From Chryseolinea soli (GTDB taxonomy: Bacteria; Bacteroidota; Bacteroidia; Cytophagales; Cyclobacteriaceae), in NCBI RefSeq assembly GCF_003589925.1, contig NZ_CP032382.1, positions 7,192,001 to 7,256,000 on the forward strand: a DNA stretch of 64,000 bases, given 5' to 3'. Shown here piece by piece: positions 14,964-34,273 of the stretch. How positions within the stretch are numbered: the first letter of the stretch is position 1; each line of letters starts with the position of its first letter. Position numbers and translations under genes: made by a program. A model generated the notes under the pieces. That model worked only from the letters and a program-made list of their open reading frames with translations, ran no database searches and was not told the origin of the DNA.

Positions 14964-16154
14964 ATGGACATTTCCATCAGCGATTATACTTATACGCTTC
15001 CCCCGGAACGGATTGCCGTCTATCCCCTGGCAAACCGTGACCAATCCAAACTGTTGTTCTACGACCGCGGGGTTATCGACCATCAAATCTTTTCGTCGCT
15101 TCCCGATCTTTTGCCGGCCGACACTCTCCTGTTTTTTAACGACACCAAAGTGATCCCCGCGCGGCTTCACTTCCAGAAAGATACGGGCGCCGTCATTGAG
15201 ATCTTTTTGCTGCACCCGGTGCTCCCTTCGCCGCTGGTCATGGAAGCCATGCAGGCCCACCATCGCTGCACATGGCAGTGCACGCTGGGAAATCTGAAGC
15301 GCTGGAAAGATGAGCCGTTATTCAAAACATTTCACGGCATCACCTTAAAGGCCACGCTGAGCGATCGCGAAGAAGGGTTGGTGGAATTTGAGTGGGCTAC
15401 GGAACATTCCTTTGCCGAGGTGGTGAACCTTGCGGGAGAAACCCCCTTGCCCCCTTACCTCCATCGCAAGCCCGAGCAAGCCGATCGCGATCGCTATCAA
15501 ACCATCTACTCGCACCACGAAGGGGCCGTGGCAGCGCCAACGGCCGGACTGCATTTTACGCCAGCCATCTTTGAACAATTGAAAGCCAAAGGCATCGCAC
15601 ACGACTTTGTCACGCTTCATGTGAGCGCGGGAACATTTCAGCCTGTGAAGGTCGAGAATGCCATGGAGCATGTGATGCACAACGAACAGGTGGTGGTGAC
15701 ACGGGCCAACCTGGATCGCCTTTTGTCAGGACGATATATCGTGCCGGTGGGCACGACGTCGATGCGGACGTTGGAGAGCTTGTATTGGTATGGCGTGAAA
15801 TTATTGAAAGACCCACGGGCTGTTTTTACGATCTCACAACATGAAGCCTATGCTGCTGCAGACCGTTGGCCCTCTCGCGACGAGGCGCTGCGTGCCGTGG
15901 TGGCGTATATGGAACGGAATCAATTGGATCTGCTCACCGGCGAAACGTCCATCTACATCATGCCGGGTTATACGTTCCGGGTATGCGAGGCGTTGATCAC
16001 CAATTTTCATCAACCCGGTTCAACGCTGATCTTACTGGTGGCCGCGTTTATTGGAGCGGATTGGAGGAAGGTCTATGACGAATCGCTTGCTAACGGCTAT
16101 CGCTTCCTCAGCTATGGCGATAGTTCACTATTAATCCCGCGTACGGAGGGCTAA
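14964..16154 (+). CDS. queA: S-adenosylmethionine:tRNA ribosyltransferase-isomerase (QueA family)
   Basis: 396 residues from ATG 14964. Family motifs: YTLPPERIAVYPLANRDQSK near the N-terminus, FFNDTKVIPARL (about 56-67), the strongly conserved AAPTAGLHFTPAIFEQL (about 190-206), HVSAGTFQPVKVEN, and a C-terminal TNFHQPGSTLILLVAAFIG. QueA transfers the ribosyl part of SAM to 7-aminomethyl-7-deazaguanine in tRNA to make epoxyqueuosine. The sequence is the longer, more divergent Bacteroidota variant. It converges on a PorE-like gene across a repeat-containing gap. Confidence 0.9.
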   Translation: MDISISDYTYTLPPERIAVYPLANRDQSKLLFYDRGVIDHQIFSSLPDLLPADTLLFFNDTKVIPARLHFQKDTGAVIEIFLLHPVLPSPLVMEAMQAHHRCTWQCTLGNLKRWKDEPLFKTFHGITLKATLSDREEGLVEFEWATEHSFAEVVNLAGETPLPPYLHRKPEQADRDRYQTIYSHHEGAVAAPTAGLHFTPAIFEQLKAKGIAHDFVTLHVSAGTFQPVKVENAMEHVMHNEQVVVTRANLDRLLSGRYIVPVGTTSMRTLESLYWYGVKLLKDPRAVFTISQHEAYAAADRWPSRDEALRAVVAYMERNQLDLLTGETSIYIMPGYTFRVCEALITNFHQPGSTLILLVAAFIGADWRKVYDESLANGYRFLSYGDSSLLIPRTEG

Positions 16155-16160
16155 GCGCTG

Positions 16161-16235
16161 CGCCTTTCTTTGCGTCTTTGCGCCTCTGCGGTTTAAAATT
16201 CTACCGCTAAGGCGCAAAGACAGCGCGAAGAAGCT
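16161..16235. repeat. Large imperfect inverted repeat between convergent genes
   Basis: Left arm 16161-16191 (contains TCTTTGCGCCTCTGCGGT) and right arm 16203-16235 (reverse complement contains TCTTTGCGCCTTAGCGGT) flank an 11-base AT-rich loop. It sits between the convergent queA and OmpA genes and could act as a bidirectional terminator. The CTTTGCGTCTTTGCGCC-type sequence resembles dispersed intergenic repeats seen in several phyla. Confidence 0.75.
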
Positions 16236-16239
16236 GTCG

Positions 16240-18813: not shown

Positions 18814-21800
18814 ATGAAGGCACAAATAATCCGTTTTCTTGATACCGAGCCGGGCGAGACCGGTCGCGTGGGCCTGTTGTTCATCATGAGCTTTTTTATG
18901 GGGGTGTTCGTGGCCACTATTACGGTAGCTTCGCAATCACTTTTCCTGGAACATTTCGACGAGCAAACCCAGTTGCCCATCGCCCTGTTGGTGTCGGGTG
19001 CGTTCGGATTGTTTGCTACCATTATTTATAACTTCCTCCAAAACCGGATTCCCTTTCAATTGCTGGCCGTACTCAGCTTGGCGGTGATCACGGTGCTGAC
19101 GGCTTTTATTGAATTTGGCGAAGGCTTTTTCGCGGACCCACGCACTATCTACTTCCTGGGGTTTGCACAGATCATTCCGTTCTCTTTTATTATATACCTC
19201 GTTTTCTGGGGCGCCTTTGGCCGCTTGTTCAACCTCCGCCAGTCCAAGCGCCTCGTAGGAACGGTGGATATGGGCGCCATGATCGCTTCATTCATCGCCT
19301 TCTTTTCCATCCCTCAATTCCTCGGTCTGGGAGTGAAAACGGAAACGTTGTATTCCGTATCGCTGGCGAGCATTATCTGCTTTATGGGGTTGTTTATTTT
19401 CTTGTCGCTGAAATACAAGACACGTACATTCGCCCAGGAAAAAAAGATGTACAAAAAGCTGGTACTCAAGGATTTCCTTCAGAACCGGTACATTCTCTAC
19501 ATGTCGCTTTTCGTGGTGGTTTCCATGATGGCCGTGAACTTTGTGGACTACTCATTCTTCAACGCCACCACCATTTTTCTGAGCCGCGAAGACTTGCCGC
19601 GGTTCATCTCCTACTTTGAAATGACCATTGTTATTTTCGGGTTTCTTTTCCAGACGTTGGCCACGGATCGCATTATTAAAGAGTATGGCCTGCGCATACC
19701 GCTGCTGATCAACCCGTTCCTCATCTGTCTTTTCACGGTGGTGGCCCTGATTTTGGGAACGATCTTCGGGTACTCGTTAGGTTTCTTCATGGTGATTGCC
19801 ATCAGTAAGCTCTTTGTCCGGTCGCTCCGCGAATCACTGGACAACCCCACGTTCAAGCTCTACCTGTTGCCAATCGAAAGCAGCATTCGCATCGACGTGC
19901 AAACCAAGATCGAGGGGTTGGTCACCGCCTTTGCCAGCCTTCTTGCCGGTGCGCTCATTATCCTGATCACCAAAGCAGAATTCTTTACGCTGATCTATAT
20001 TACGTTGTTCACCATACCGCTGCTGCTCATCTGGTATTTTGTTTCCAACCGAATGAACAACAGCTATCGCCATACCCTGCAAGACACGTTGGTGCGCAAC
20101 AAATCTTCGCTATCGGCCCGCGTTGAGCGGGAGTATACGCTGAACACGGTATTGGAAAAAGAGGTGAACAGCTCGGTCGAGCAAAAAGTCGTCTACGGGT
20201 TGAAGCTCATGGAAAAACTGGAGCCCGCCCTGTTCGAAAACACGTTGATGCGATTGATTGAAAGCTCCTCGCGGAAGGTCCGGGCATTTGCCGAAGAAAA
20301 GATCCAGGCCCTCGGGCTGCGCAACGATGCCGGCAAAACAGAACTGCGTTCGCTAGCCGAAAAAGCCTATGGCGAGTTGGAAGACAGCGACCTGCTGTCT
20401 ATCTCGCCCGAGAAATTATTAAAACTCAGTAAGTCGGTCAGACAATCGGATCGTGTCCTCGCGGCCAAGCTGTTGCGCAAGTTGGTGGGACCGCGCACCA
20501 TTTTCGTATTGCTGGAATTGCTTCGCGACGTCGATCCAAAAGTTCGTTTCGAAGCGCTATATACTGCCCGCAAGGTGAAGCTGAGCGAAACCTGGCCGGT
20601 GTTGATCGAATTGTTAAACTCCCCTGCCTACAGTCATCACGCCGCAGCCGCGCTGAAGGAAGCGGGTGAAGCCGCCTTGCCCACCCTGGAAGCTGCCTTC
20701 CATAAGTCGGGACAAAGCGACCTGGTGATGTTGCGCATCGTGCAGATCATGGGCAGCATTGGCGGCAAGTACGCCTTGCAATTGCTGTGGAAGAAAGCCG
20801 ACTATCCCGATAAGCGCATCGTGCGTCAGATCCTCAATTCGCTGCGTTTTATAAACTATCAGGCCGAGGGACGTGAGGCGCGCGAGGTGATCAACTTGCT
20901 GGAAAGCGAGATGAGCAAAACCATCTGGAACCTGGCCGCGTTGCACGAGCTCCCCGAGGAAAAAGAATTTTTCTTTTTACGTGAAGCGCTCGAAGAAGAG
21001 ACCCGCGACAATTACGACCAGATCTACATCCTGCTTTCGATCCTGCATGAACCGCGTTCTGTGCAATTGGTGCGGGAGAATATCGAGTCGGGCGATCCCG
21101 ACAACATCGCGTTTGCCATGGAGTTGCTGGACTTATTCATCGACCCCGAGGTGAAACCTAAACTGATCCCCTTGCTGGATGACATGGCCGTCCCGGAAAA
21201 GTTGAAACAATTGCAGATCTTCTTTCCCCGCGAAAGCTATAATCCCATTCAGGTGATCAACTACATCCTGAACCGCGACTTCAACCTGAACAATCGGTGG
21301 ACGAAGGCGTGCGCCATTTACGCGTCGGCCTATATCTCCGATTTCCGGATCAGCCGCGGTCTGGTGGCGCAAATGTTCAACGCCGACAAGCTCCTGCAGG
21401 AAACGGCGGCATGGGTGATCTATAATAAGAACAAAAAAGAGTTTGAGGTCATCTCCGAACGCCTCCCCCTCAAGGACAAAAAATTCCTCGACTCGTCGAT
21501 CGAAAACAATCAGCTGCTGGATGGTTTGAACGATGGTTTCTTTTTGTGGGTGGAGAAAGTCATGTTCCTGAAACAATTGCCTGCCTTCAAAAATATTCAC
21601 GGCGCCATGCTCTGTGACCTGGCCGACAAGATCACACCTTTGGATCTCGCCTTCGCCACCCGCGTGAAATTTACACCCGACGATTTCAACACCCCCATCT
21701 TTGTGCTTGCGCACGGTGAGGCACAGCTGAAAACGAACGGGATACTCGCCGCCACCTTGAAACGTGGCAGCCTGTTCGGCGACCTGTTCCAGGATGGCAT

Positions 21801-21966
21801 AGCGCCCAAGATCACATCACTGGAGGCCACCGAGCGCTGTGTTGTGTTCAAGATCAACCTCATGGATTTTTACTATGTAATGGCCAACCATCACGAACTG
21901 GTGCAAAGCCTCATCAAAAATATTACGGAAGAAACCGAACCCTATTTGCAACAACCTTTAACCTGA
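18814..21966 (+). CDS. NTT/MFS-type membrane protein fused to HEAT repeats and a degenerate cNMP-binding-like domain
   Basis: 1050 residues from ATG 18814. Residues 15-430 form about 12 membrane helices related to ATP/ADP (NTT) carriers and MFS proteins: the segment RSLRESLDNPTFKLYLLPIE (about 336-355) matches the NTT signature region. Residues 470-890 are alpha-solenoid HEAT-like repeats (VRAFAEEKIQALG; DPKVRFEALYTARKV; ALKEAGEAALPTLEAAF). Residues 910-1045 resemble a cyclic-nucleotide-binding fold (VMFLKQLPAFKNIHGAMLCD; GSLFGDLF), but the phosphate-binding Arg-Ala-Ala-type segment is replaced (APKITSLEA), so nucleotide binding is doubtful. It opens a six-gene operon: the next gene starts 4 bases after its stop. 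Role inferred: inner-membrane sensor or transporter coupled to the downstream STAND protein. Confidence 0.8.
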   Translation: MKAQIIRFLDTEPGETGRVGLLFIMSFFMGVFVATITVASQSLFLEHFDEQTQLPIALLVSGAFGLFATIIYNFLQNRIPFQLLAVLSLAVITVLTAFIEFGEGFFADPRTIYFLGFAQIIPFSFIIYLVFWGAFGRLFNLRQSKRLVGTVDMGAMIASFIAFFSIPQFLGLGVKTETLYSVSLASIICFMGLFIFLSLKYKTRTFAQEKKMYKKLVLKDFLQNRYILYMSLFVVVSMMAVNFVDYSFFNATTIFLSREDLPRFISYFEMTIVIFGFLFQTLATDRIIKEYGLRIPLLINPFLICLFTVVALILGTIFGYSLGFFMVIAISKLFVRSLRESLDNPTFKLYLLPIESSIRIDVQTKIEGLVTAFASLLAGALIILITKAEFFTLIYITLFTIPLLLIWYFVSNRMNNSYRHTLQDTLVRNKSSLSARVEREYTLNTVLEKEVNSSVEQKVVYGLKLMEKLEPALFENTLMRLIESSSRKVRAFAEEKIQALGLRNDAGKTELRSLAEKAYGELEDSDLLSISPEKLLKLSKSVRQSDRVLAAKLLRKLVGPRTIFVLLELLRDVDPKVRFEALYTARKVKLSETWPVLIELLNSPAYSHHAAAALKEAGEAALPTLEAAFHKSGQSDLVMLRIVQIMGSIGGKYALQLLWKKADYPDKRIVRQILNSLRFINYQAEGREAREVINLLESEMSKTIWNLAALHELPEEKEFFFLREALEEETRDNYDQIYILLSILHEPRSVQLVRENIESGDPDNIAFAMELLDLFIDPEVKPKLIPLLDDMAVPEKLKQLQIFFPRESYNPIQVINYILNRDFNLNNRWTKACAIYASAYISDFRISRGLVAQMFNADKLLQETAAWVIYNKNKKEFEVISERLPLKDKKFLDSSIENNQLLDGLNDGFFLWVEKVMFLKQLPAFKNIHGAMLCDLADKITPLDLAFATRVKFTPDDFNTPIFVLAHGEAQLKTNGILAATLKRGSLFGDLFQDGIAPKITSLEATERCVVFKINLMDFYYVMANHHELVQSLIKNITEETEPYLQQPLT

Positions 21967-21970
21967 AACC

Positions 21971-23410
21971 ATGGCCTTTGAAATTGATGTTTTGATTATT
22001 TTTTCCGACCGCGACAACGAGGCGACTGGAAACGAACCGGGATGGGTCACTCAATTCAAAAAATTCCTGGAATCCATGCTCACGCAGATCTTGGGAGAGA
22101 AACCCAACGTGTTGCTGAAATCCGAGCACGACACCATGACCTCGCCGCGTCTCGACAACGCGGCCGTGTTGGTGTCTATCCTATCCAAAGATTTTATTCA
22201 ATCCAGCCCCGGCCTGGATCACCTGGAGAAATTCACACAAGTCGCGAGCACCAAGGGGCAAAACAGAGTGTTCAAAGTTTTCAAAACGCCTGTGCCCGTA
22301 CAGGAGCAGCCGGCGCGCGTACGCGAACTGCTGGGCTATGAAATGTATCAACTCGACCCTGATTCGGGCGAGATCCGCGAATACACCGACTACTTCAGTA
22401 CGGAGGCTGAGCGCCAGTATTGGATGGAGATGGTGGATCTGAGCTATGATATTTTCGACACGTTGTCGGCGTTCAAAGACAAGTCGTTGGCGAAGGAAGT
22501 GAAGAATGTTTTCAAGCGCAAAACCATCTACCTGGCCGAGACGGGCCACGACCTGTCGGTGCAGCGCAATATTATTACCCGTGAATTGCAACGCCACGGC
22601 TACACCGTGCTGCCCAACCAAACCCTGCCCGGCAATGTGGCCGACCTGGAGCGCGTGGCTCGCCGCGACCTGGCCGAGTGCAGCATGTCCATCCACCTCA
22701 TCGGCGCCGTGTATGGCGACATCCCCGAAGGTACCGACCGTTCCGTGGTAGACATCCAGAACCGCATCGCCGCCGAGCGCAGCAACCGCGGACGGGAGAA
22801 CAAAGAAGAATTTTCACGCCTCATCTGGATATCGCCCAACCTGAACCACATCACTGAGCGCCAAAAGGGATTCATCGAAAACCTGAAACGCGATGTGGAA
22901 GCACAAGAGGGCGCCGAAATTTTACAGACGCCGCTGGAAGATTTCAAGAACATCATGCGCGAAGAACTGGCCGACGCCGGGGAAAAGAAAGCGCTGGACG
23001 AGACCGGTGGCCGCGCCGTCTACCTCATGCACGACAAAGTAGATCATCTCGATATAAAACCGTTTGTAGAGCTCATCGAGCGTTCAGGATTCAGCGTGCT
23101 CATGCCTTCGTTTGAAGGTGAGCTGTTGGAGCTTCGGCAGAAGCACATCGAAAACCTGCGCAACCTGGACGCCGCCATCATCTACAAAGGCAAGGTGAAC
23201 GATCAATGGGTGCGCATGAAAGCGCTGGACCTGTTGAAGGCGCCGGGCTTTGGCCGCAAAAAGCCCATTATGGGCAAGGCCATCTTCACCGCCAAAGGCT
23301 CGCACGTGAACGCCGAGTCGTTCAAGAGCCAGAACCTCCGGGTCATCGATGGCGACAATCAACAATCCCTGGAATCGTTAAAATCATTTTTGCAAGAATT
23401 TAAAGCATAG
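21971..23410 (+). CDS. TIR-like / DUF4062-like multi-domain protein
   Basis: 479 residues from ATG 21971, cytoplasmic, with no signal or membrane helix. It appears to hold three Rossmann-like units. Unit one (1-160) is TIR-like: FEIDVLIIFSDRD at strand A, and LVSILSKDFIQSSPGLDHLEKF, comparable to the TIR segment around the catalytic Glu. Unit two (175-330) resembles DUF4062: KTIYLAETGHDLSVQRNIITR, then a long helix and SMSIHLIGAVYG. Unit three (340-479) is again TIR/Rossmann-like: RAVYLMHDKVDH, FSVLMPSFEGE, LDAAIIYKGKV. Whether unit one is an active NADase cannot be told by eye. It lies 4 bases after the upstream gene and 2 bases before the STAND gene, so it is tightly co-translated. Alternative: a purely scaffolding adaptor. 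Confidence 0.7.
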   Translation: MAFEIDVLIIFSDRDNEATGNEPGWVTQFKKFLESMLTQILGEKPNVLLKSEHDTMTSPRLDNAAVLVSILSKDFIQSSPGLDHLEKFTQVASTKGQNRVFKVFKTPVPVQEQPARVRELLGYEMYQLDPDSGEIREYTDYFSTEAERQYWMEMVDLSYDIFDTLSAFKDKSLAKEVKNVFKRKTIYLAETGHDLSVQRNIITRELQRHGYTVLPNQTLPGNVADLERVARRDLAECSMSIHLIGAVYGDIPEGTDRSVVDIQNRIAAERSNRGRENKEEFSRLIWISPNLNHITERQKGFIENLKRDVEAQEGAEILQTPLEDFKNIMREELADAGEKKALDETGGRAVYLMHDKVDHLDIKPFVELIERSGFSVLMPSFEGELLELRQKHIENLRNLDAAIIYKGKVNDQWVRMKALDLLKAPGFGRKKPIMGKAIFTAKGSHVNAESFKSQNLRVIDGDNQQSLESLKSFLQEFKA

Positions 23411-23412
23411 TC

Positions 23413-26400
23413 ATGCAAGTCATTGACGAAAAATTAGAAACCGCCAACCCGTTCCCCGGGTTGCGACCCTTCAAGATCGACGAAAGTCACCTCTTCTTTG
23501 GTCGTGAAGGACAAAGCGACGAAGTGCTGCTCAAGCTTTCGAAGAACCGGTTCGTAGGCGTTATCGGTCCGTCAGGAAGTGGTAAGTCGTCGTTCATTTA
23601 TTGCGGCGTGATGCCCATTTTGTATGGCGGGTTCCTCACCGACGCCAGCCCCAACTGGGAAGTGGTGGTGACACGCCCCGGCGCAGGTCCCATCGACAAC
23701 CTGGCTGAAGCGCTGCTGAAAAACAACCCCGAGTACCTCGCGTCCGACACCGAAGAGAAAAAGATCAAGCGCACCATCTTCTCTACCTTGCTGCGCAGCA
23801 GCTCGCTGGGATTGGTTGAAGCCATCGAGCAGACCCGCAAGGATGTGGACGTGAACTACCTGGTGCTGGTCGATCAGTTCGAAGAACTTTTCCGGTTCAA
23901 GGAAGGTCACGATGTAAACTCGGTGAACGAAACGCTCGCCTTTGTGAACCTGCTGATGGAGGCCGTGAACTATCCCGATGCCCCCATCTATGTAGCGATC
24001 ACCATGCGGTCGGATTTTATCGGCGACTGTGCGCAGTTCCCTGATCTCACCCGCAAGATCAACGACAGTCACTACCTGATCCCGCAGCTCACGCGCGAAC
24101 AAAAACGGAATGCCATCGAGGGGCCGGTTGCAGTAGGTGGCGCCAGCATTGCGCCCCGCCTGGTGCAGCAGTTGCTAAACGACCTGGGCGATAACCCCGA
24201 CCAACTCCCCATTTTGCAACACGCCTTGATGCGTACCTGGAGCTACTGGTCGTTGTATCGCGACTTCGAAGAAGAGCACGTTGACCTGAAACACTACGAA
24301 GCCATCGGCACCATGACGGAGGCTTTGTCGCAACACGCCAACGAAGCCTACGACGAACTTTCGGAAGAGCAAAAACATATTTGTGAAGTACTGTTCAAGG
24401 CCATCACGGAGAAACGCGGTGAGAACTTTGGCATCCGCCGCCCGACACGCCTCACGGAAATTGCCGCCATCGCCAGCGTGGAGGAAGATGCCGTGATCGA
24501 GGTGATTGATAAATTCCGGGAACAGGGAAGATCTTTGCTCACACCTGCGCACGGCGCATACATCACGTCCAAATCCATGGTCGACATTTCGCACGAAAGT
24601 CTCATGCGGATTTGGGTGCGTCTGAAGAATTGGGTGGATGACGAAGCGGAGGCCGTGCAAATGTATACGCGCCTTGCCGATGCCGCCACCATGTACCAGG
24701 TGGGTAAAGCCGGCTTGTGGCGACCACCGGATTTGCAGCTCGCTTTAAATTGGCAAGCCAAGCATAAGCCCACGCTTGTTTGGGGGCAACGTTATAACCC
24801 TGCCTTTGAGCGCACCCTCATCTTCCTGGAATATTCCCGGAAAGAATGGGAAACCGAGCAGCGCATCAAGGAAATGGAGCAGAAGGCCAAGCTGAAGCGG
24901 GCCAGAGTGTTTGGTATCATCATGGGTGTAGCTACGGTAGTATGCTTGTCATTTCTGGTGTATGCGCTTTTCCAAAAAGCGCAAGCAGACAATGCCCGAA
25001 AACTGGCCGTTGCCAATGCTCATCGCGCCGATAGCCTTCGCGTTGTTTCCGATAACGACAGACTTTTGGCTATCAAGGCTAAGGAAGAAGCCGAAGAGGC
25101 TCAAAAAGCTGAAGCTGCGCAAAAGTTGTTGGCACAAGAAGCTGAAAAACGCGCGGTTCAAAACGCCGAGCTGGCAAAGAGAAACGCCATCCAGGCGCAA
25201 AAGAATGCCGAGGAGGCAAAACTCAACGCCGAGCGCGCCCTGAAGAACGAGGCCATTGCCAAGGAGCAGGAACAGATCGCCAAGCAACAAGAACAGATCG
25301 CTAAAGACAACGCGGCCGAAGCCTTGCGACAGCGTTATATCGCCCAGGCGAAAGCCATGGCCGTGAAGTCGAAGGAGTTGAACGATCCGGAACAAGAAGC
25401 CCTCATCGCGCAACATGCTTACAAGTTCAACACTGATCACCGCGGATACGAGTACGACAACGACATCTACAACGGTCTGTATGCCGCGTTGAAAAAATAC
25501 GACCATCCCCTCACCCAAAGCTTGCAAGCCCACGACCGCGGCGCCGCCCGCGCGTTGGTGACCCGCCCTACCGGCAACGAGATCTATTCCGGCGGCAGCG
25601 ACGGCAAAGTTTTCCGTTGGACGGAAGTGAACAACAACTGGAAATCGGAAATGCTCGTGAACCGTCCCGACTATCAATACTACACCATCGACGTGAGTGC
25701 CGATGGAAAATTGCTCATCGCGGCAGGGTTGAATTCCAACAGTGAAACCAAGAACTATGTAGAGGTCTACAACCTCGACAACATGTCGGACGCACCCAAG
25801 AAGGTGACGGGCTTTACGTATGCCATCGAGAACCTGAATTTCACACCGGATGGCAAAGGCTTCTATGCCCGCGACAATTCCGGTAAGAGCATCAAGTACT
25901 CGGACCTGAGCACGAGCCGCGAAGTCATCGTGCCGCCGGTGAAGATCAATGCCATTGACCTGAGTCCCGATGGAAACTTCTTGGCGGGTGCAGGTGAGAA
26001 TGGCAGTCTGTACGTTTGGGACATTCGCAACAACTATACCGTAGCGGAACATAAAAATCTGGGACAACACCTCACCGCCGTTTGCTTCGCGCCCGAAGGA
26101 CGACGCATCGTGGTGGGTGACAACACCGGGGTGGTAACCCTTTTCGACAACCAGAGCAACCTTGTGCTGCGCGTGCTGTCGGGACACACGTCGGTGATCG
26201 AGCAGATCCAGTTTAACCACGCCGGCAAGTTCATGGCCACCGCCAGTAAGGACAAGACCGTGCGCCTGTGGAATGTGGACCGCCTGAAAGAACAGCCCAT
26301 CGTGTTCAGCGATCACAAAGACTGGGTTTGGGGTGCAGCCTTCACACCGGACGATGAGCAATTGCTGGCCTGCGTGCACAGCTCCATCGAAACCGTGAAA

Positions 26401-26568
26401 GGTGTTGAACATACCATCCACGCCTGGCCTACAAAAATTCCGACCATGGCGAACATTCTTTGCGGCAGCGTAAAACGCAACATCAACAAAGACGAATGGG
26501 AGATTTTCGTTGGCGACGACCTTAAGTATGAAAAGACGTGTGCTGATTTACCGGATAACAATAATTGA
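23413..26568 (+). CDS. Membrane-anchored STAND ATPase (nSTAND1-like) with coiled coil and WD40 propeller
   Basis: 1051 residues. N-terminal NPFPGLRPF and FFGRE are the typical lead-in of nSTAND1 proteins, then Walker A GPSGSGKSS (52-60) and Walker B LVLVDQFEELF (150-160). A winged-helix region lies near 300-400 (VDISHESLMRIWVRLKNW is a family marker). One membrane helix (about 498-518, VFGIIMGVATVVCLSFLVYAL) is followed by a long Ala/Glu/Lys coiled coil (545-640) and WD40 blades (706-1030; SGGSDGKVFRW, GENGSLYVWD, ASKDKTVRLWN). This predicts a cytosolic ATPase and a periplasmic propeller. Some proteins of this kind carry the legacy name Hat/HatR. Gaps of 2 bases upstream and 4 bases downstream place it in the centre of the operon. 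Confidence 0.85.
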   Translation: MQVIDEKLETANPFPGLRPFKIDESHLFFGREGQSDEVLLKLSKNRFVGVIGPSGSGKSSFIYCGVMPILYGGFLTDASPNWEVVVTRPGAGPIDNLAEALLKNNPEYLASDTEEKKIKRTIFSTLLRSSSLGLVEAIEQTRKDVDVNYLVLVDQFEELFRFKEGHDVNSVNETLAFVNLLMEAVNYPDAPIYVAITMRSDFIGDCAQFPDLTRKINDSHYLIPQLTREQKRNAIEGPVAVGGASIAPRLVQQLLNDLGDNPDQLPILQHALMRTWSYWSLYRDFEEEHVDLKHYEAIGTMTEALSQHANEAYDELSEEQKHICEVLFKAITEKRGENFGIRRPTRLTEIAAIASVEEDAVIEVIDKFREQGRSLLTPAHGAYITSKSMVDISHESLMRIWVRLKNWVDDEAEAVQMYTRLADAATMYQVGKAGLWRPPDLQLALNWQAKHKPTLVWGQRYNPAFERTLIFLEYSRKEWETEQRIKEMEQKAKLKRARVFGIIMGVATVVCLSFLVYALFQKAQADNARKLAVANAHRADSLRVVSDNDRLLAIKAKEEAEEAQKAEAAQKLLAQEAEKRAVQNAELAKRNAIQAQKNAEEAKLNAERALKNEAIAKEQEQIAKQQEQIAKDNAAEALRQRYIAQAKAMAVKSKELNDPEQEALIAQHAYKFNTDHRGYEYDNDIYNGLYAALKKYDHPLTQSLQAHDRGAARALVTRPTGNEIYSGGSDGKVFRWTEVNNNWKSEMLVNRPDYQYYTIDVSADGKLLIAAGLNSNSETKNYVEVYNLDNMSDAPKKVTGFTYAIENLNFTPDGKGFYARDNSGKSIKYSDLSTSREVIVPPVKINAIDLSPDGNFLAGAGENGSLYVWDIRNNYTVAEHKNLGQHLTAVCFAPEGRRIVVGDNTGVVTLFDNQSNLVLRVLSGHTSVIEQIQFNHAGKFMATASKDKTVRLWNVDRLKEQPIVFSDHKDWVWGAAFTPDDEQLLACVHSSIETVKGVEHTIHAWPTKIPTMANILCGSVKRNINKDEWEIFVGDDLKYEKTCADLPDNNN

Positions 26569-26572
26569 TTGC

Positions 26573-27616
26573 ATGAAAAGAGTTTTTTACGTTCTTCCCT
26601 TTGCTTTTTTTGCCTTTACCGCCCACGCCCAACTGACCTCCTGTGCGCAAACCCTGCGCCTGGCCCGGTCTACTTATGAGCAAGGCCGGTTGCACGAGAT
26701 CCCCGAGTTGCTGACGCGATGCCTGGAGAATGGCTTTTCACAACAGGAAAAAGTAGAGGCCTACAAGCTGCTTTGTCTCGCCTACATTTACCTGGAGGAG
26801 CCCGCGAAGGCCGATGAAGCGATGCTGAACCTGCTGCGCACCGATCATTACTTCGAGATCAACCAGACGACCGATCCCGCCGAATTCATTGCCTTGTATC
26901 GCACCTTTCGCACGCATCCGATCTACCGTCTCGGTGTGAAGCTGGGCGCGAATGCGAGCCAGCCCAACGTGGTAAGCTATGTGCCCGCCAATGGAGGCAC
27001 CAGCAAATATTCGGCCGGCATCTCCTTCCAGGGTGGTGTGGCCGTGGAAGTGCCGCTGAACAAGAAGCTGACGATCGATACAGAGTTGAATTTCGTATTG
27101 AAGACCTTCAAATATGAAAACAAAGTGACCTACGACGAGATCGCCACCGGCGACCCCCGGAATTTCACCATCACCGGCAAAGAAAATCAAACGTGGGTCA
27201 CTCTCCCTGTGATCCTGCAGTATCGTTTTCTGGAAAGCAAATTCAACCCCTATGTGGGCATTGGCGCTTCGCTGGATTACCTGTTGAACGCCACCAATAA
27301 ATTCTCGCGCACCAAGGAACAGGCCGCATCGCTGGATGAACAATCGCTGTCGCTGAACGACTACCGGAACCGGGTCAATGCCAGTGCCATACTGGCCCTG
27401 GGTGCGAAAATGAAAGTGACCGGTGGGTTCGCCTTTCTGGAAGTGCGGGGCTCCTATGGAGTCACCAAACTGAACGACGCGGCCGATATTTACGCCCTCT
27501 ATGCAAAAACCCTCCCGACCGGCGGTTACGTGGACGGCATTTTCAAAATGAACACACTCAGCGTAACCTTGGGATACGTATACAACCGATTCAATCCTAA
27601 AAAACTGAACAAGTAA
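26573..27616 (+). CDS. Outer-membrane beta-barrel protein with N-terminal helical repeat
   Basis: 347 residues from ATG 26573; upstream in-frame codons lie within the STAND gene and would lose the signal peptide (KRVFYVLPFAFFAFTAHAQ). Residues 25-105 are TPR-like (YEQGRLHEIPELLTRCLENGF; AYKLLCLAYIYLEEPAKADEAM). From about 118 the sequence alternates as in PorT/OmpW-type barrels (YRLGVKLGANASQPNV; GGVAVEVPLNKKLTIDTELNF; PYVGIGASLDYLL; LSVTLGYVYNRF at the C-terminus). It should sit in the outer membrane, with the helical part in the periplasm where it could meet the WD40 part of the STAND protein (inference). It starts 4 bases after the STAND stop. Confidence 0.82.
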   Translation: MKRVFYVLPFAFFAFTAHAQLTSCAQTLRLARSTYEQGRLHEIPELLTRCLENGFSQQEKVEAYKLLCLAYIYLEEPAKADEAMLNLLRTDHYFEINQTTDPAEFIALYRTFRTHPIYRLGVKLGANASQPNVVSYVPANGGTSKYSAGISFQGGVAVEVPLNKKLTIDTELNFVLKTFKYENKVTYDEIATGDPRNFTITGKENQTWVTLPVILQYRFLESKFNPYVGIGASLDYLLNATNKFSRTKEQAASLDEQSLSLNDYRNRVNASAILALGAKMKVTGGFAFLEVRGSYGVTKLNDAADIYALYAKTLPTGGYVDGIFKMNTLSVTLGYVYNRFNPKKLNK

Positions 27617-27627
27617 GTCCCTCCCCA

Positions 27628-28929
27628 ATGAAGAAGCTCTCTTTTATTTCGCTTTCCCTGTTGCTATTGTCGGGCTGTAAGAACCTGGAGGACGCCAGTG
27701 TTAGTCAACGCAATACGTTCATGCATTTTTATGAAGGTGCCAACAGCTACGTAGCCACCACTGCCGAAATCACCGAGGATGGCTATGTGATTGCCGGCAC
27801 CATCAACATACCCGGCGATCAGCCCACCTCCAAGATCATTGTGATCAAAACCGATGCCCTGGGCAAGCCCGAGTGGCAAAAGATCATCGACGGCGGGTCG
27901 GCCCGGGGAATTACCGTATCGGCTAGTGGTTACATCCTGGTGGGCGACAGTATTCAATTGAACCCAAATTCAGGCAGCATCCCAGACCTGGAAAACTACT
28001 GGTCACGCCTCATTCGTATGGATAACAGCGGATCTATCGTATCGGACGTATCCTATGCCAAGACCGTGAAAAATGGTCAGGGCGATGCGCATGTGGACTT
28101 TCATGCCGATGCCCTCACGCTGGACGATCAGGGGAACCTCGTGACCCTGGGCACCTATAAATATCCCGGTCTCAACGAATTCGCTTATATCGCCACGCTG
28201 AATCCCACGTCGTTGGATACGGTTTGGAAAAAGGAATACAACTACCTGGAGCGTGACTACATCAACACAAAATCGGTATTCTACAATAGCGGCCGCGTGA
28301 TGTGGGGAGCTACCGTATCGGGTACGGCCAGCAACTTCACGACCTCGTATGTGGCCATGCCGGTGGTGGAGAACAATTCCGTGTTTGTGAATTGCGACTA
28401 CTTCGGACAACTGACCGAGCAATCGCTGGTGATCAATGATCTCAAGGCTGCCCCCATCGGCTATGGTGCCGTCGGCACGTATGCCGGCACCGATGGCAAC
28501 AAGGGAAATGTCTTTTTTGTCCGTACCGACAAGCTGGGCAATTTCCAAAAGGAATCGGTCCATTATTATGATGGTGCCTCCGAGAGCATTGCCGTATCGG
28601 ATCCCACATCGTCGTCCAGCGAAGACACCGGCGAGTCGTTGACGTCGACGCGCGACGGCGGATATGTTTTGGCCGGCACATTAGAAACCACACCCACCCG
28701 CGGTAACGGTGGTACGGATATCTGGCTGATCAAGGTCGATGCTTATGGCGCACCGATCTGGGACAAGATCATTGGCGGGCCCACGAATGAAATTGTGTCG
28801 TCCATCCGCGAAGCGGCTGATGGCAGCCTCGTGATCTGCGGAACCATCCGCGACGCCTCGGAAGAAACGGGCGGTCTATCGTCGATCTTTTTGATCCGCA
28901 CCGACAGCCAGGGAGAATTGAAGAATTAA
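27628..28929 (+). CDS. Lipoprotein with beta-propeller-like repeats
   Basis: 433 residues. Signal peptide with lipobox LLLLSGC (Cys 17), so it is a lipoprotein. The body holds repeated propeller strands of the type DGYVIAGT (residues 51-58 and again near 350) and DIWLIKVDAYGAPIWDKIIGG, as seen in proteins with repeats of a delta-60 or PD40-related kind. There is no enzyme motif. It follows the barrel gene by 11 bases and precedes the giant surface protein by 31 bases, so the location is likely the outer membrane, in a complex with either. Whether it faces outward cannot be decided; the residues after Cys (KNLEDAS) are acidic but not a textbook surface-export signal. Confidence 0.8.
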   Translation: MKKLSFISLSLLLLSGCKNLEDASVSQRNTFMHFYEGANSYVATTAEITEDGYVIAGTINIPGDQPTSKIIVIKTDALGKPEWQKIIDGGSARGITVSASGYILVGDSIQLNPNSGSIPDLENYWSRLIRMDNSGSIVSDVSYAKTVKNGQGDAHVDFHADALTLDDQGNLVTLGTYKYPGLNEFAYIATLNPTSLDTVWKKEYNYLERDYINTKSVFYNSGRVMWGATVSGTASNFTTSYVAMPVVENNSVFVNCDYFGQLTEQSLVINDLKAAPIGYGAVGTYAGTDGNKGNVFFVRTDKLGNFQKESVHYYDGASESIAVSDPTSSSSEDTGESLTSTRDGGYVLAGTLETTPTRGNGGTDIWLIKVDAYGAPIWDKIIGGPTNEIVSSIREAADGSLVICGTIRDASEETGGLSSIFLIRTDSQGELKN

Positions 28930-28960
28930 TTTTTAGCATACGAATTAACGATATCTGTCT

Positions 28961-31900
28961 ATGGACTTTTCTTTACAACGGAGACGCCTGTTCACCTTTT
29001 TGCTGTTTTTCATGGCAACGGGGTCAGCATGGGCCAACAACACTGTAACGATCGAGCAGGACGGCGCACAAGTGGATCCCACCAACGCGTCGCCTATCCT
29101 CTTTGTGGTCACCTTCAATGAAGCCGTAACCGGCTTCACTTCCGCCGACGTGGACCTGAGCACGTCCACGGCAACGGGAACGCTGGCAGCCGCCGTAACA
29201 GAAATCGCCCCCAACAACGGTACCACCTACCGCGTGAGCGTGACCGGCATGACGGGCAACGGCAATGTCATTGCCCAGATCCCCGCCGCGGCCGCCAAGT
29301 TGGTTTCGGATGGAACAACAAATACGGCGGCTAGCACCAGCAGCGACAATTCCGTACGCTTCGACAACACACCGCCCACGGTAAACAATCTTACGCCCAA
29401 CGACAATGCCACCGGCGTAGCGGTATCCACCAACCTCGTGATCCAGTTCAACGGCAGTTCCCTCGTCAAGGGCACGGGAACGATCGAACTGCGCAAAGAC
29501 TCCGACGACTCCATGATCGAAAGCTTTGACGTGGCCACGTCATCCAACATTTCGATCAGTGGACAGACGGTCACCATCGACATCAGCAGCAACCTGGCGG
29601 TTAGCACCAAGTATTATGTGATCGTCCCCGCCGGCTCCTACACCGACGCTGCGACAAATCCTTTTGCCGGCCTCACGGCCAAAAACGATTGGAACTTCAC
29701 CACCAACAATCCTGCGCCCTTCGGTTTGTCGACGGTCCCCGCCGACGATGCGACTGGCGTCTCCCTGAGTACGAGCAGTGTAAGCATTACCTTCTCGGAG
29801 CCTGTGGTGAATGTGGGTGACAACTCCAACACCAACAATAGGATCAGCATCAGGAACGTGACCGCCGGTAGTACGTTTGAAACCATTGACCCCACTGCCG
29901 CGGGAAAAGTAGTGATCGCCGGTTCGACGGTCACCATTAACTTTGTCGGAACGCTTTCTCCCGGCGTCACCTATGCGGTGAGGATCGGTAATTCGGTTTT
30001 TGAAGATGTGGATGGTGCGGGCTACAGCGGGATATCCAATGACACGGATTGGAATTTCACAACGATAGCGCTGCCGACGTTCACCTTTAAGTCACCGATA
30101 ACCATACCCGCTTCTACAACCTCCGCCACGAACACCTGCGTTGGTGAAAAGGTATCGCTGGATGGTACCAACTTCGGTACGACACCCACGGTAACCATCG
30201 ATGGCACCCCGGTTCCTATGGCCAACTATGTTACCCAGACCTCCACCAAAGTCGAGTTCATCGTGCCTTCGGTAACAGGTTCCTTCGATGTGGTATTGAC
30301 GAACAACGACAACAGCTTGTCCAGCGCGCCAGCGACGATCAACTTCAAGCCGGCCATCCTGACCAACCTCAATGTGTTTGCCAGCCCGGCCAGCGCTGCC
30401 GTTGGCGGATCGTCTGCGATCAAAGTAGACAACTCCCAGTCGACTGTAACCTATCAAATGATCTTGAACCCGAGCACCAACATCGGCAATACGCAAGGTG
30501 GTAACGGTGCCCAGCTTTCGTTTGCTACCGATGCTACGCCCGGTGGTGCCGTCTACCCTACTCCTGGCCCGACGAGCTACACGTATAAATTTCAAGCTAC
30601 CTCCAGCGGTTGTGCCACGAAAACACTCACCAATACCGCCACCGTCAATGTGTCGGCTGTAACCGCTTCTGCCGGTCCGGACAAGGACCTTTGTATCGGC
30701 GACGCCGTGACCATCGGCGGCAGCCCGACCGGTTCTGGCGGCACGGGTTATTTCAGCTTTTCATGGTCGAGCCCAGGCGGCTTTACCAGCACGGCAACCA
30801 ACCCGAGCGTGACGGCACCCGGTACATATACCGTTACGGTGAAAGACAACACGGGCGCAACCGACACCGACGATGTGGTGGTCACCGGCCTTACAAAACC
30901 CACAATCGATTTTATGGTCGGAATTCGCACCCAGTTCAACTACGATGAAAGTGCCTACCTGCTTAGCGACAAAACTATCGTTATCCCCAACGATGGCACA
31001 GGTGTGTTCAGCGGACAGGGGGTGACTCTCAACTCCACCGACGGCAACTATTACTTCAACCCTCAGGCCTTTACTTCCCAGGCCGTGGGCGTACCGATTA
31101 CCTACACGCACACCTCGGCCAATGGGTGTTCGAATTCCAACAGCTTTCCTGTGGATGTTAACGTTCCGGGGTCGGCTGTCACCAATTTTAAAACGAAATA
31201 CTGTTACAACGACAATCCTACCACCGGGCTCGTTTTTAACCAGTCAGTATACACTATTCCCCCCGGAAAAGAGTTTAGCTCTTTGAAGGCGTATGGCTAT
31301 AATGCGGCAACGGCCCTCTACGGGTTTTATGACCCGTTAGACCCCAACTACCCGCTTAGCAAAAGCGGCCCGACCTATACCTTCAACCCCGTAAAAGCCT
31401 ATGCCCTTGCGGGGCAAACCTCATCGGTGTATGTCATGGTGTATCTCAGGAACTCTACTCCTGACAAAATTGAGGATCCTTTCTATTTTACCTATTCGGG
31501 CGCTATTATGTGGGGGCCCGGCGCCGTACCTGAAATACTTCCCATGAGGGAGGACGCGATTGTCTGCGAAAAAGATCCTTTGATCACGCTCTCCTCCACG
31601 CTGGATGCGCCCGGCTTTGGCTATACAACCTTAAATTATCAGGAAACCAGCTACAACTCTGTGTCGGGGTCGGGCACGGGACCTTACACGTTCAATCCCG
31701 ACCTGGTGAACTTTGGTAGCTTCAATCAGAAGGCGGTTACCGTCAAGTTTAACTACAAGGACAACAACGGCTGCGTGGCCTCGACGCAGCGGTCGGTGAC
31801 CGTCGTCAAGAAAGTAGGTGGTCCCATCTCCCTCGACCAACAATATTGCCAGTTCTTTGACGGCAAACGCGTGTTATCGGCCGAGTCGCAATACCCTAGC

Positions 31901-34213
31901 GAAAAAATTACCTTTGCCTGGTATACTTCCTCTTCGCTGTCGGATGTCACGCCCGGCACCGGATCAGTGTTCGATACCGACATCAACACGCAAAACCCTG
32001 TCACCAAAACCTATTATGTAACACAAAACTTCCGCAGCTGCGAAAGCGACTACACCGCGGTCAACATCGTGGTTGCCCCGGCGCCGGTGATCAACCTCAA
32101 CTTCCCGTCGCCTTGCGAAAACCGCGCTACGACCTACGTGGGTCCCGTGCCGCCAGGTTCCAATCCCAGCTATAGCTGGAGTTTCTCAGGCGATTCGCAG
32201 AGCTACAACACCAAGGATGTCGTACACACCTTTGCCAACAACGGTCCGGCCAGTGTATCGCTGGTTGTAAAATCAACCAGCAACGGGCAGGAGTGCTCCT
32301 CATCCGCCACACAATCCCTTGTGGTGGGACAAAATCCGACGGCGGACGTCACCTTCAATCAATTGTGTGATGGCGACAACACCAACTTGCAAGCGTTGTC
32401 GGATCTTAACGCCGAAACCATTTACTGGGATTTTGGCGACGGCGATGTGTGGGCCAAGAGCCCGCAGGGCACGGTGATCAACGATCCCGCAGGTCGCACC
32501 ACGGGTACTTATCTTGCGCCCCATCACAAATTCACCAATGGTGAAGGCGAGTATACCGTCGAATTGCGTGTATATACCAACCTGAATTGCAGCGACACGG
32601 TGAAAAAGACCTTGCGAATTCTCCCCTACCTCAAAAACTTCAACTCCCTCAATCCCTATCACATGGAAGCGCTCAACGGGGGCGACGGTTTCTGGGCAGT
32701 CGACAGCAGCAGCGTAAACTCCAGTTGGCAATTCACGGCGCCTAATGATACCGTGATCCACAACATCAACAAGGCGTGGGTAACCAATGGCGACAAGAAT
32801 GTAAATTTCGGCGATTACAATTCCAACGAGCACTCGGCGGTGAACAGCCCCTGCTTCGACATCACTGGCTTTGAGCGCCCCGTCTTTGCAATGGATTTCA
32901 TTGCGAATACGGGTTCTGATTCGGGTAAGGATGGAGCAGTATTGCAGGTGTCGACCGACGGCGGCTTGAGCTGGAAAGTGATCGGCGACAAGAACTCCGG
33001 TTTGAATTGGTACAATACTATCGGTGTATCGGGTAGCGCGCCCGGCGAGCAGAGCGTGGTGGCCTGGTCAGGCGACCTCTGGACCACCAATATCGACAAG
33101 ACCGACTCGATCTGGCTGCAAGCCAAACACACCCTGAACCTCCCCGAAAATGTGTTGCCATCGGCCAAAAGGAACAAAGTGCGTTTTCGCGTTGCCTTCG
33201 CCAGCAACGGCGATACGGAGTTTGAAGGGGTTGCTTTCAACAATGTGCACATCGAGGACCGTAATCGCATCATGCTGGTAGAGAACTTCACCAACGTGAC
33301 CGCTGCGGGCGCGGGTGTCAACAACACCCGTTTCAATACTCCCCAAGACGATGTGGTGAAGATCCAATACAACGTGAGCTTCCCCGGTGAAGATGAGATC
33401 AACCTGCAAAATCCCACGGACCCTGGTGCCCGCGGAGCTTTCTATGGCATTGCCAATACCGACCAGGTGGTGCCCCGTGTCTACGTTGATGGCACGAGCG
33501 GTGGTAAACTTACCGGTCCCACCGACTGGTTTGACCAGAGCAAATCCCTTCGCTCGCTGGTGACGTCGCCTTTGGACATCAGTATCTCCACGGTGCCGGC
33601 CAGTACCAGCCAGTTGTCGGTGGTGGCACAGATCACGCCGAATCAAACCCTTACGGAAGGCAAGCTGATAGCCCACGTCGTCATTGTCGAAAACCCCGTG
33701 GACGGCAACGAATTTGTTTTGCGTAAAATGTTACCCAATGCGTCGGGCACTGTGCTGGCCATGCCATTGACCACGGGGGTACCTGTCACTTTGCCGACAT
33801 TGACCTGGCAAGTGGACAACACGCATGTGGACCCGGCCAACCTCTCGGTGGTGGTATTCGTGCAGAACGAAGACACGAAGGAAGTACTGCAGGCGGCCAT
33901 GCTCGAACATCCGTCCAATCTGCCCACCGCGATCGTGACCGGCACAGAGCCTTCCTTCAGCCAACAGACGTCGCTCTATCCCAACCCAGCCGATCATCAA
34001 CTCATCATCCACATGCCACAAGCCGCGCGGAAAGACATGCCGCTGTCGATCTTCGACACGTTTGGCCACGAAGTGTTACAACGCACGATCGTTACCGGCG
34101 AGCAGCAAGTGGTCGTGAATACAACATCTTTTGCGGCGGGCGTTTACCTGATCCAATTCGAGGCTTCTCCAGGGGTACAGGTACGCAAGAAAGTAGTGGT
34201 CACCCACCGCTAA
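28961..34213 (+). CDS. Giant T9SS-secreted surface protein with Ig-like, IPT and PKD domains and an Omp28-like domain
   Basis: 1750 residues from ATG 28961. Signal peptide ends near SAWA. Domains by eye: an Ig-like unit (26-136; VTFNEAVTGFTSADVDLS), two SbsA/Big-type Ig units (about 137-250 and 252-368; both ending WNFTT), an IPT/TIG unit (371-462; VSLDGTNFGTTPTVTIDG), further beta-sandwiches, a PKD-like region (about 1040-1220; IYWDFGDGD), an Omp28-like thioredoxin fold (from about 1435; MLVENFTNV, PRVYVDG) whose usual Cys pair is absent, and a C-terminal type A T9SS signal (SLYPNPADHQL; GVYLIQFE; last 80 residues). It should be displayed on the cell surface. It closes the operon and is followed by a strong terminator, so its dose is tied to the STAND system. 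Confidence 0.9.
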   Translation: MDFSLQRRRLFTFLLFFMATGSAWANNTVTIEQDGAQVDPTNASPILFVVTFNEAVTGFTSADVDLSTSTATGTLAAAVTEIAPNNGTTYRVSVTGMTGNGNVIAQIPAAAAKLVSDGTTNTAASTSSDNSVRFDNTPPTVNNLTPNDNATGVAVSTNLVIQFNGSSLVKGTGTIELRKDSDDSMIESFDVATSSNISISGQTVTIDISSNLAVSTKYYVIVPAGSYTDAATNPFAGLTAKNDWNFTTNNPAPFGLSTVPADDATGVSLSTSSVSITFSEPVVNVGDNSNTNNRISIRNVTAGSTFETIDPTAAGKVVIAGSTVTINFVGTLSPGVTYAVRIGNSVFEDVDGAGYSGISNDTDWNFTTIALPTFTFKSPITIPASTTSATNTCVGEKVSLDGTNFGTTPTVTIDGTPVPMANYVTQTSTKVEFIVPSVTGSFDVVLTNNDNSLSSAPATINFKPAILTNLNVFASPASAAVGGSSAIKVDNSQSTVTYQMILNPSTNIGNTQGGNGAQLSFATDATPGGAVYPTPGPTSYTYKFQATSSGCATKTLTNTATVNVSAVTASAGPDKDLCIGDAVTIGGSPTGSGGTGYFSFSWSSPGGFTSTATNPSVTAPGTYTVTVKDNTGATDTDDVVVTGLTKPTIDFMVGIRTQFNYDESAYLLSDKTIVIPNDGTGVFSGQGVTLNSTDGNYYFNPQAFTSQAVGVPITYTHTSANGCSNSNSFPVDVNVPGSAVTNFKTKYCYNDNPTTGLVFNQSVYTIPPGKEFSSLKAYGYNAATALYGFYDPLDPNYPLSKSGPTYTFNPVKAYALAGQTSSVYVMVYLRNSTPDKIEDPFYFTYSGAIMWGPGAVPEILPMREDAIVCEKDPLITLSSTLDAPGFGYTTLNYQETSYNSVSGSGTGPYTFNPDLVNFGSFNQKAVTVKFNYKDNNGCVASTQRSVTVVKKVGGPISLDQQYCQFFDGKRVLSAESQYPSEKITFAWYTSSSLSDVTPGTGSVFDTDINTQNPVTKTYYVTQNFRSCESDYTAVNIVVAPAPVINLNFPSPCENRATTYVGPVPPGSNPSYSWSFSGDSQSYNTKDVVHTFANNGPASVSLVVKSTSNGQECSSSATQSLVVGQNPTADVTFNQLCDGDNTNLQALSDLNAETIYWDFGDGDVWAKSPQGTVINDPAGRTTGTYLAPHHKFTNGEGEYTVELRVYTNLNCSDTVKKTLRILPYLKNFNSLNPYHMEALNGGDGFWAVDSSSVNSSWQFTAPNDTVIHNINKAWVTNGDKNVNFGDYNSNEHSAVNSPCFDITGFERPVFAMDFIANTGSDSGKDGAVLQVSTDGGLSWKVIGDKNSGLNWYNTIGVSGSAPGEQSVVAWSGDLWTTNIDKTDSIWLQAKHTLNLPENVLPSAKRNKVRFRVAFASNGDTEFEGVAFNNVHIEDRNRIMLVENFTNVTAAGAGVNNTRFNTPQDDVVKIQYNVSFPGEDEINLQNPTDPGARGAFYGIANTDQVVPRVYVDGTSGGKLTGPTDWFDQSKSLRSLVTSPLDISISTVPASTSQLSVVAQITPNQTLTEGKLIAHVVIVENPVDGNEFVLRKMLPNASGTVLAMPLTTGVPVTLPTLTWQVDNTHVDPANLSVVVFVQNEDTKEVLQAAMLEHPSNLPTAIVTGTEPSFSQQTSLYPNPADHQLIIHMPQAARKDMPLSIFDTFGHEVLQRTIVTGEQQVVVNTTSFAAGVYLIQFEASPGVQVRKKVVVTHR

Positions 34214-34236: not shown

Positions 34237-34273
34237 CGTCTTTATGGCCATTTCGTGGCCGTAAAGACGTTTT
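34237..34273 (+). terminator. Rho-independent terminator of the six-gene operon
   Basis: Arms 34237-34250 and 34256-34269 pair over 14 bases with one G-U, loop TTTCG, followed by TTTT. It begins 23 bases after the stop of the giant surface protein gene. Confidence 0.85.

Follow-up and report, generated by a model that had tools for sequence, protein, structure and literature searches.

The window, a stretch of 64,000 nucleotides from the single-contig genome (8.24 Mb) of Chryseolinea soli, contains six adjacent genes, termed here A to F, that are followed by a hairpin (Table 1). The gaps between the window ORFs from A to F are 4, 2, 4, 11, and 31 bp; in relatives, where gene starts are those of the longest ORFs, the corresponding median gaps are 18, 4, 4, -1, and 42 bp. 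The start of D is an ATG inside a longer listed ORF (26510-27616). The hairpin is likely the transcription terminator of the block. It was not listed by a simple terminator scan, probably because its T-run is short. Neither promoter-like sites (10 across the region vs 10.5 in shuffles) nor terminator-like sites (18 vs 20.0) are in excess, and both scans, being no better than shuffles, were dropped as evidence for or against a single operon. The ORF coordinates and the folding energy of the hairpin agree with the initial annotation, which described six closely spaced same-strand genes closed by a strong terminator. Upstream of the block, a divergent gene on the minus strand (16240-18573) encodes a 777-aa protein that appears by eye to be TPR/PD40/OmpA-like; its counterpart in the f1 relatives (L032-L036) has the corresponding position, and it was not found at the other 35 loci fetched around B.

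Table 1. Genes of the A-F block and the hairpin that follows them (window coordinates)
Feature	Position	Strand	Length	Description	Predicted location
A	18814-21966	+	1050 aa	Membrane domain of the NTT type (ADP/ATP-carrier-like), HEAT repeats, weak match to a cNMP-binding domain	Inner membrane
B	21971-23410	+	479 aa	Three tandem TIR/NDT-like domains	Cytosol
C	23413-26568	+	1051 aa	nSTAND1 NTPase, transmembrane helix, coiled coil, WD40	Bitopic, N-in
D	26573-27616	+	347 aa	Signal peptide (by eye), periplasmic helical domain, beta-barrel	Outer membrane (barrel)
E	27628-28929	+	433 aa	Lipoprotein beta-propeller	
F	28961-34213	+	1750 aa	Giant T9SS-type protein	Surface
Hairpin	34238-34268	+		Likely terminator of the A-F block; -26 kcal/mol vs -8.4 in shuffles, z -7.1	

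Gene order in relatives

Conservation of the block was assessed in 194 genomes of the window's order and in a phylum-wide sample of 395 genomes. Relatives of B are present in 42 of the 194 order genomes, which contain 51 B places outside the window; 40 of these loci were fetched. Genes A to E are complete and in order at 25 of the 40 loci, with B identity as low as 21%, and the other 15 do not have the complete ordered five-gene set. Five g38/g65 loci (L059-L063) have no A; L054 and four g67 loci (L064, L066-L068) have no E; A and B are separated from C and D in L070 and L071; E and F are turned round in L055; B is alone in L056; and A and B occur without C in L050.

Named genomes were scanned with an alignment of C because the large and diverse alignment of B is too variable. 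The 80 named loci are the highest-ranking among 565 confirmed matches and hence the closest relatives of C, and four of them (L099, L113, L130, and L138) apparently repeat genomes of the order sample (G078, G064, G025, and G192, respectively). Genes at all loci were called as longest ORFs, and a neighbor was counted only at loci with room, i.e., where the contig is long enough at C. Room on both sides of C is available at 63 named loci, and at 58 of these A, B, D, and E all surround it; the neighborhood check suggested in the initial annotation is thus passed in most relatives. When neighbors are counted singly at named loci with room, D follows C in every case (77/77), E is present in 72 of 73 (it is missing from L138), 64 of 65 have A upstream of C (the exception is L156), B is present in 69 of 74 and missing in five, and 61 of 62 have a gene start no more than 600 bp downstream of E. 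The closest C protein among the best 80 of the 565 matches is that of Chryseolinea lacunae (88%), and the named C loci extend to MAGs labelled Bacteroidales and Flavobacteriales. At five MAG loci (L143, L152, L153, L160, and L165), about 2 kb separate A from B, enough to hold one more gene. About a third of the order genomes (62/194, E <= 1e-100) contain C, compared with 8 of the 395 phylum-wide genomes (E <= 1e-200), and the block is therefore mainly a feature of the window's order in that sample.

The genome of C. soli itself has a second copy at 5.45 Mb that comprises C, D, E, and F without A and B (L173:12885-20000 and L174); its F protein would be ~4,200 aa long if the frames of two neighboring stretches are one, and it ends in a T9SS tail. 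A close relative (L175) has A-C-D-E-F and no B, and B is likewise missing at three named loci that have A and C (L145, L161, and L166). These copies without A and/or B indicate that C and D form the core. In the T9SS branch, E and F accompany this core, and A and B are frequent partners. A-F is a real conserved gene block, and the scattering of its genes, which had been named beforehand as the outcome that would speak against it, is not the case in most relatives; exceptions include G018, where B, C, and the D domain are on three different contigs, and G025, where B and C are on different contigs. The proposal of a six-gene unit holds insofar as the block is conserved; however, A and B are accessory to it, as C-D-E-F occurs without them.

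Lipoprotein E and predicted surface protein F

The predicted compartments agree with those given in the initial annotation: A and C in the inner membrane, B in the cytosol, D an outer-membrane barrel, E a lipoprotein, and F a T9SS-displayed surface protein. The E protein of the window has no Pfam match, but its AlphaFold2 model (pLDDT 93.7) is a beta-propeller with CylK as its best PDB match (TM 0.71). Its lipobox cysteine is Cys17, and the lipobox pattern is found in 92 of 99 members. In F, Pfam identifies Big_5, PKD_4, and Por_Secre_tail (6e-12); the protein contains Ig-like/PKD domains, a weak Omp28-like stretch, and a C-terminal sorting domain at positions 1672-1747. A T9SS tail ends 20 of the 21 complete genes that come next after E in the named loci, and Pfam detects it in all four relatives scanned for F. 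With its sorting domain and the translocon protein SprA encoded in the same genome, F qualifies as a predicted T9SS substrate. SprA is also present in all eight C-bearing genomes of the phylum-wide sample; however, it is found in 304 of 395 genomes overall, and its co-occurrence with C was set aside as uninformative.

Protein D and its helical domain

D is a small barrel at most loci (OMP_b-brl_2, 1e-15, in the window protein); there is also a weak NCBIfam match to the T6SS lipoprotein family TssQ (E 0.011). At f11 loci, the gene after C does not encode a small barrel. At the two f11 loci scanned, it encodes a TonB-dependent receptor (Pfam Plug ~2e-20, barrel 6e-29 and 6e-27), the first ~100 residues of which match the helical domain of D (E 4e-21 and 2e-18). 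Six other f11 loci have frames of 872-891 aa with the D helical domain at the head, and a long frame with this domain adjoins C in all eight C-bearing f11 genomes. Directly upstream of C, in the position usually taken by B, all six f11 loci examined for it have an RsbW-like HATPase_c_2 gene (by Pfam in two of them). We also noticed that L176, L177, and L207-L212, where the D domain heads a TonB-receptor-type protein beside C, have a GNAT-type gene and A downstream, and that C is preceded by an RsbW-like HATPase gene in L176 and L177.

Taken alone, the helical domain of D is found at 88 places in 69 of the 194 order genomes, and 65 of these places are within 4.5 kb of a C gene. The remaining 23 have no C within this distance, and three of them are long frames (703-900 aa). 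Conversely, 65 of the 79 C copies in the order genomes have the D helical domain within 4.5 kb; three of the 14 that do not have it 13-18 kb away, near a contractile injection system (CIS). The type of barrel varies, but C keeps the helical domain beside it, and on the simplest reading this domain is the part that meets C. It is thus the likely partner of C, a contact that we read from the gene neighborhood and the swap.

Protein C and its topology

C comprises an nSTAND1 NTPase domain (positions 13-429; Pfam 1e-96), a transmembrane helix (~502-520), a long coiled coil of Ala heptads, and a WD40 propeller (~700-987), also matched by Pfam. The residues of the P-loop (G..SG.GKSS) and of Walker B (DQFEE) are invariant in the 18 alignment rows; by its domain, P-loop, and Walker B acidic pair, C is classified from its sequence as a STAND NTPase of the nSTAND1 type. 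All 141 homologues have a hydrophobic helix in the linker, and in all 141 the 15 residues before this helix contain more K/R than the 15 after it. Two cysteines that sit after the propeller, Cys1017 and Cys1043, are both present in 123 of the 141 homologues and both absent from 17, with a single one in one protein, and in the helical domain of D, Cys24 and Cys50 are both present in 103 of 111 proteins, both absent from 5, and single in 3 (the counts tolerate a shift of three alignment columns for C and two for D). Such pairing is the pattern that disulfides in an oxidizing periplasm would leave. As the pair of C lies on the WD40 side and is kept or lost together in 140 of 141 proteins, and as C is predicted to be bitopic, its propeller is likely periplasmic; this supports, but does not prove, that the propeller and the helical domain of D share the periplasm. 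The inner-membrane-anchored STAND ATPase with a periplasmic WD40 part suggested at the outset is thus upheld as a prediction. The other STAND proteins with WD40 known to us are cytosolic, and for this reason the periplasmic placement of the WD40 part of C is kept as a predicted one.

Predicted cytosolic and inner-membrane partners B and A

B consists of a TIR domain (1-169), a DUF4062/DNPH1-like domain (182-342), and an NDT/TIR-like domain (346-479). The Pfam match of the window protein to DUF4062 (7.6e-5) is below the cut-off; across the family, at E <= 0.1, DUF4062 is matched in 86 of 98 members and TIR_2 in 74. Among PDB sequences, the B profile had weak matches only (TIR, NDT, and designed proteins; best E 0.012), and Foldseek with the whole model mixed TIR matches with multi-domain mismatches; single domains were resolved by VIA-align. 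Catalytic glutamates were looked for in columns picked by the motif that we take to be the relevant one. In the first domain, the glutamate is present in the window protein (E86) and in 57 of 98 members. The DUF4062 column has D261 in the window, D in 59 members, and E in 24, and the column of the third domain has K in 95 of 98. A recent study reports that DUF4062 proteins are TIR-like NADases with a role in bacterial defense against phage, and that the domain is part of TEP1, where it accompanies NACHT and WD40 (PMC13174449). B thus has the TIR-like fold of a Swarozyc-like TIR/DUF4062 NADase but not a conserved catalytic glutamate, and the poor conservation of these glutamates makes it more likely an adaptor or scaffold than an enzyme, although the first domain, where E86 is kept, may differ. 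The initial description of B as a cytosolic TIR/DUF4062-like protein is therefore apt for its fold, whereas an enzymatic TIR output from it is doubtful. Nor can B be the sole output, because it is missing from five of the 74 named loci and from the second copy in the same genome.

In the A protein of the window, Pfam detects HEAT_2 (8e-13) and, below the cut-off, a weak cNMP match. A profile built from 25 relatives of A matches solved structures of NTT-type ADP,ATP carriers over positions 113-437 (ADP,ATP carrier protein 1, E 4e-22), as well as the cNBDs of cGMP kinases. Among these 25 relatives, at E <= 0.1, HEAT_2 is matched in all, cNMP in 19, and TLC in 3; the TLC match is absent from the A protein of the window. 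By sequence A thus belongs with the NTT nucleotide transporters, and nucleotide transport by it is putative. NTT-HEAT-cNBD fusion proteins of the same architecture are described, as uncharacterized, in the part of the literature available to us (PMC5381601), and an operon like A-F is not among what that part describes.

Association with contractile injection systems in sister branches

Genes for CIS, which are phage-tail-like injection machines, lie near some of the blocks: Pfam identifies the sheath (PF17482), tube, Pvc16, tape measure, and AAA ATPase, and the spike and baseplate genes were labelled by eye. A sheath gene is present in 61 of the 194 order genomes (E <= 1e-8). The C tree (FastTree, midpoint-rooted) includes 73 of the 79 C copies (G176, G159, and the second copies of G064, G078, G144, and G173 were left out) and carries a warning of long branches that meet. 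It has one clade of 18 copies (support 100) from 18 genomes, all of which have the sheath, compared with 43 of the 176 other genomes and 7 of the 44 other C-bearing genomes. The Fisher p value for this link, 1.3e-10, treats related genomes as independent, and the 18 genomes belong to four families, 10 of them to a single one. A second FastTree phylogeny, built from 107 C proteins with those of the named loci among them, recovers the same grouping with 12 members. For nine of the 18 clade copies, the starts of C and of the sheath gene are no more than 17 kb apart (up to 15 kb in G004, G047, G056, G103, G142, G154, and G192, and up to 17 kb in G102 and G141); for the remaining nine, the two genes are on different contigs. 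The CIS-linked g67 loci (L064, L066-L068) have no F-like gene after D. In a separate deep branch (G077, G131, and G090; L167-L169), C lies inside a CIS gene run, with neither A nor B within the 20 kb examined and the D domain 13-18 kb away.

The C protein of the window falls outside the clade of 18, as do 55 of the 73 copies in the tree, and the only PF17482 match in its genome is at 6.45 Mb, ~0.77 Mb from the block at 7.22 Mb. This C is therefore not encoded with a CIS, as a CisA-like adaptor would be; such linkage is found only in sister branches, where the same relay may also trigger the CIS, judging from gene context. By eye, no A-E gene was noticed beside the CIS cluster of the C. soli genome in the stretch examined (6.43-6.47 Mb; L079/L080). 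Neither the CIS link of the sister branch nor the TonB-receptor swap had been foreseen in the initial annotation.

Two further kinds of loci were noted. A truncated C with a remnant of the D barrel is present in L179 (6694-10346) and L180 (8655-11754), both from related genomes without a sheath match; their flanks resemble, by eye, the CIS locus L167, and they are likely a decayed CIS locus. At 16023-17798, L064 encodes a protein of the GH18 family (Pfam 3e-42) whose start is signal-like and whose C-terminal end is hydrophobic, and similar frames were also seen by eye in L070 and L172; all of them are in CIS loci that carry the block.

A proposed two-membrane relay and its alternatives

We propose, with a probability of about one half, that the A-F block encodes a two-membrane signal relay in which C, an NLR-like STAND ATPase in the inner membrane, would be switched by partners at the outer membrane that act on its WD40 propeller in the periplasm. 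The observations behind this proposal are the conserved gene order, the domain content, the T9SS tail of F, the helix of C with its positive flank, the cysteine pairs of C and D, and the f11 swap. F at the surface, the lipoprotein E in the outer membrane, and the D barrel would sense contact or surface state, and this outer-membrane input, or that of the TonB receptor, would move the helical domain of D against the propeller of C. By analogy with APAF-1-type switches, release of the propeller would allow the cytosolic STAND domains to open, bind ATP, and cluster. The cluster could then recruit B, as a TIR-array adaptor, and A, as an NTT-HEAT-cNBD membrane protein, for output. An HATPase (in f11) or an injection system (in the sister branch) might carry the output instead; with the HATPase in the place of B and the CIS beside the block, the output is probably exchangeable. 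CisA of Streptomyces, a bitopic membrane protein reported to be needed for CIS contraction (PMC12237407), shows that a trigger role of this kind is possible. In the window lineage, a TIR-scaffolded stress or death response would be a first guess. The single line of signalling from the surface to the cytosol envisaged initially fits the conserved block and the predicted compartments, with the modifications that A and B are accessory and that an enzymatic TIR output is in doubt. More tentatively, the whole could be pictured as a transmembrane inflammasome, in which an NLR-like STAND receptor would read outer-membrane partners with a periplasmic WD40 sensor, the helical domain by which they dock being swappable, and would drive one of several interchangeable outputs (a TIR-array adaptor, an RsbW-like kinase, or CIS firing).

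Several other readings were considered. The regular presence of a gene with a T9SS tail shortly after E, together with SprA in the same genome and in the C-bearing phylum genomes (although SprA is found in most genomes of the sample), would also fit a machine for the assembly or display of F. The giant would then be received or anchored by D and E, and C would use ATP as a chaperone or for quality control, not as a switch. We consider this unlikely, because C stays both at the CIS-linked g67 loci, where no F-like gene follows D, and in f11, where the D domain heads a TonB-receptor-type protein; moreover, STAND domains are not secretion motors in any system known to us. A pure T9SS secretion or gliding part was rejected for the same reason, namely that C persists without F. 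The A profile's match to NTT ADP/ATP carriers and the TonB-receptor variant of f11 could alternatively be taken to mean nucleotide or NAD scavenging, with the giant and the barrel capturing substrate, A importing it, and C and B in regulatory roles, but this is very improbable: A is missing from the second copy in the same genome (L173) and from the g38 loci L059-L062, D is a small barrel at most loci, and NTT-HEAT fusions are uncharacterized in what is available of PMC5381601.

The DUF4062-type domain in B and the STAND NTPase in C bring to mind a system of the Swarozyc/TIR-STAND kind that protects against phage cell-autonomously or by abortive infection, all the more as TEP1/NWD proteins are reported to join DUF4062 and NACHT, several of them with WD40, in one chain (PMC13174449). 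Such a role is improbable here, as the DUF4062 glutamate is mostly replaced by D and the block keeps its gene order and its ties to outer-membrane and T9SS genes. Moreover, PADLOC-DB 2.0.0 gave no convincing match, the best being very weak ones for C (5.9e-4, over a 22-residue P-loop stretch) and for A (6.7e-4, HEAT); phage defense by library match was rejected on these grounds, and defense, one of the roles offered initially, is not favored. A comparably low probability is given to an envelope platform for the docking or firing of CIS, of which the T9SS branch would be a derived re-use. The C sister clade found solely in sheath-bearing genomes and the C genes inside CIS gene runs in three genomes of the further branch speak for it, as does CisA, a bitopic membrane protein reported to be required for CIS contraction and function in Streptomyces (PMC12237407). 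However, the window copy is far from the sheath of its own genome, most C copies in the tree are outside the clade, and a midpoint-rooted tree gives no direction of change.

Relation to known systems and implications

In relays of the FecA/FecR type, the periplasmic N-terminal domain of a TonB-dependent transducer talks to an inner-membrane protein. The f11 variant resembles them, but its likely inner-membrane partner is a STAND ATPase and not an anti-sigma factor. CisA, as far as the available part of PMC12237407 describes it, is like C in being bitopic with a cytoplasmic N-terminus and in being encoded in CIS gene clusters; the likeness is one of topology and gene context. Unlike CisA, C has a STAND NTPase, a WD40 propeller, and outer-membrane partners, and it is CIS-linked in sister branches only. 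The main text of the AlgoCIS paper (PMC8894135) does not contain the terms "transmembrane", "ATPase", or "membrane anchor".

Switches of the TEP1/NWD1/APAF-1 type and Swarozyc DUF4062 proteins are reported to bring together a TIR-like DUF4062, STAND/NACHT, and WD40 (PMC13174449), as is the case here. Unlike them, the A-F block splits these domains over two genes, is predicted to cross the inner membrane, and has ties to the outer membrane, and the catalytic glutamate is mostly not conserved in B. The nSTAND1 domain is common to C and to the conflict systems reported in PMC8195603; in contrast to the setting of C, the words "periplasm" and "outer membrane" do not occur in the main text of that paper. 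PMC7159879 is also listed for such systems. The parts are thus already known: nSTAND1 (PMC8195603), DUF4062, NTT-HEAT-cNBD fusions (PMC5381601), T9SS, and CIS. Their combination, STAND-WD40 with T9SS or CIS, was not found among the matches listed (the best 20 of longer listings of open PMC papers, with subscription papers outside this scope).

The relay reading gives clear predictions regarding the topology of C, the C-D contact, and ATPase-dependent clustering. If it is true, a switch of the apoptosome/NLR type would operate across the inner membrane of a bacterium, and its sensor would lie outside the cytosol. It would also suggest how Bacteroidota couple surface events to cytosolic responses and what anchors or fires some of their contractile injection systems.
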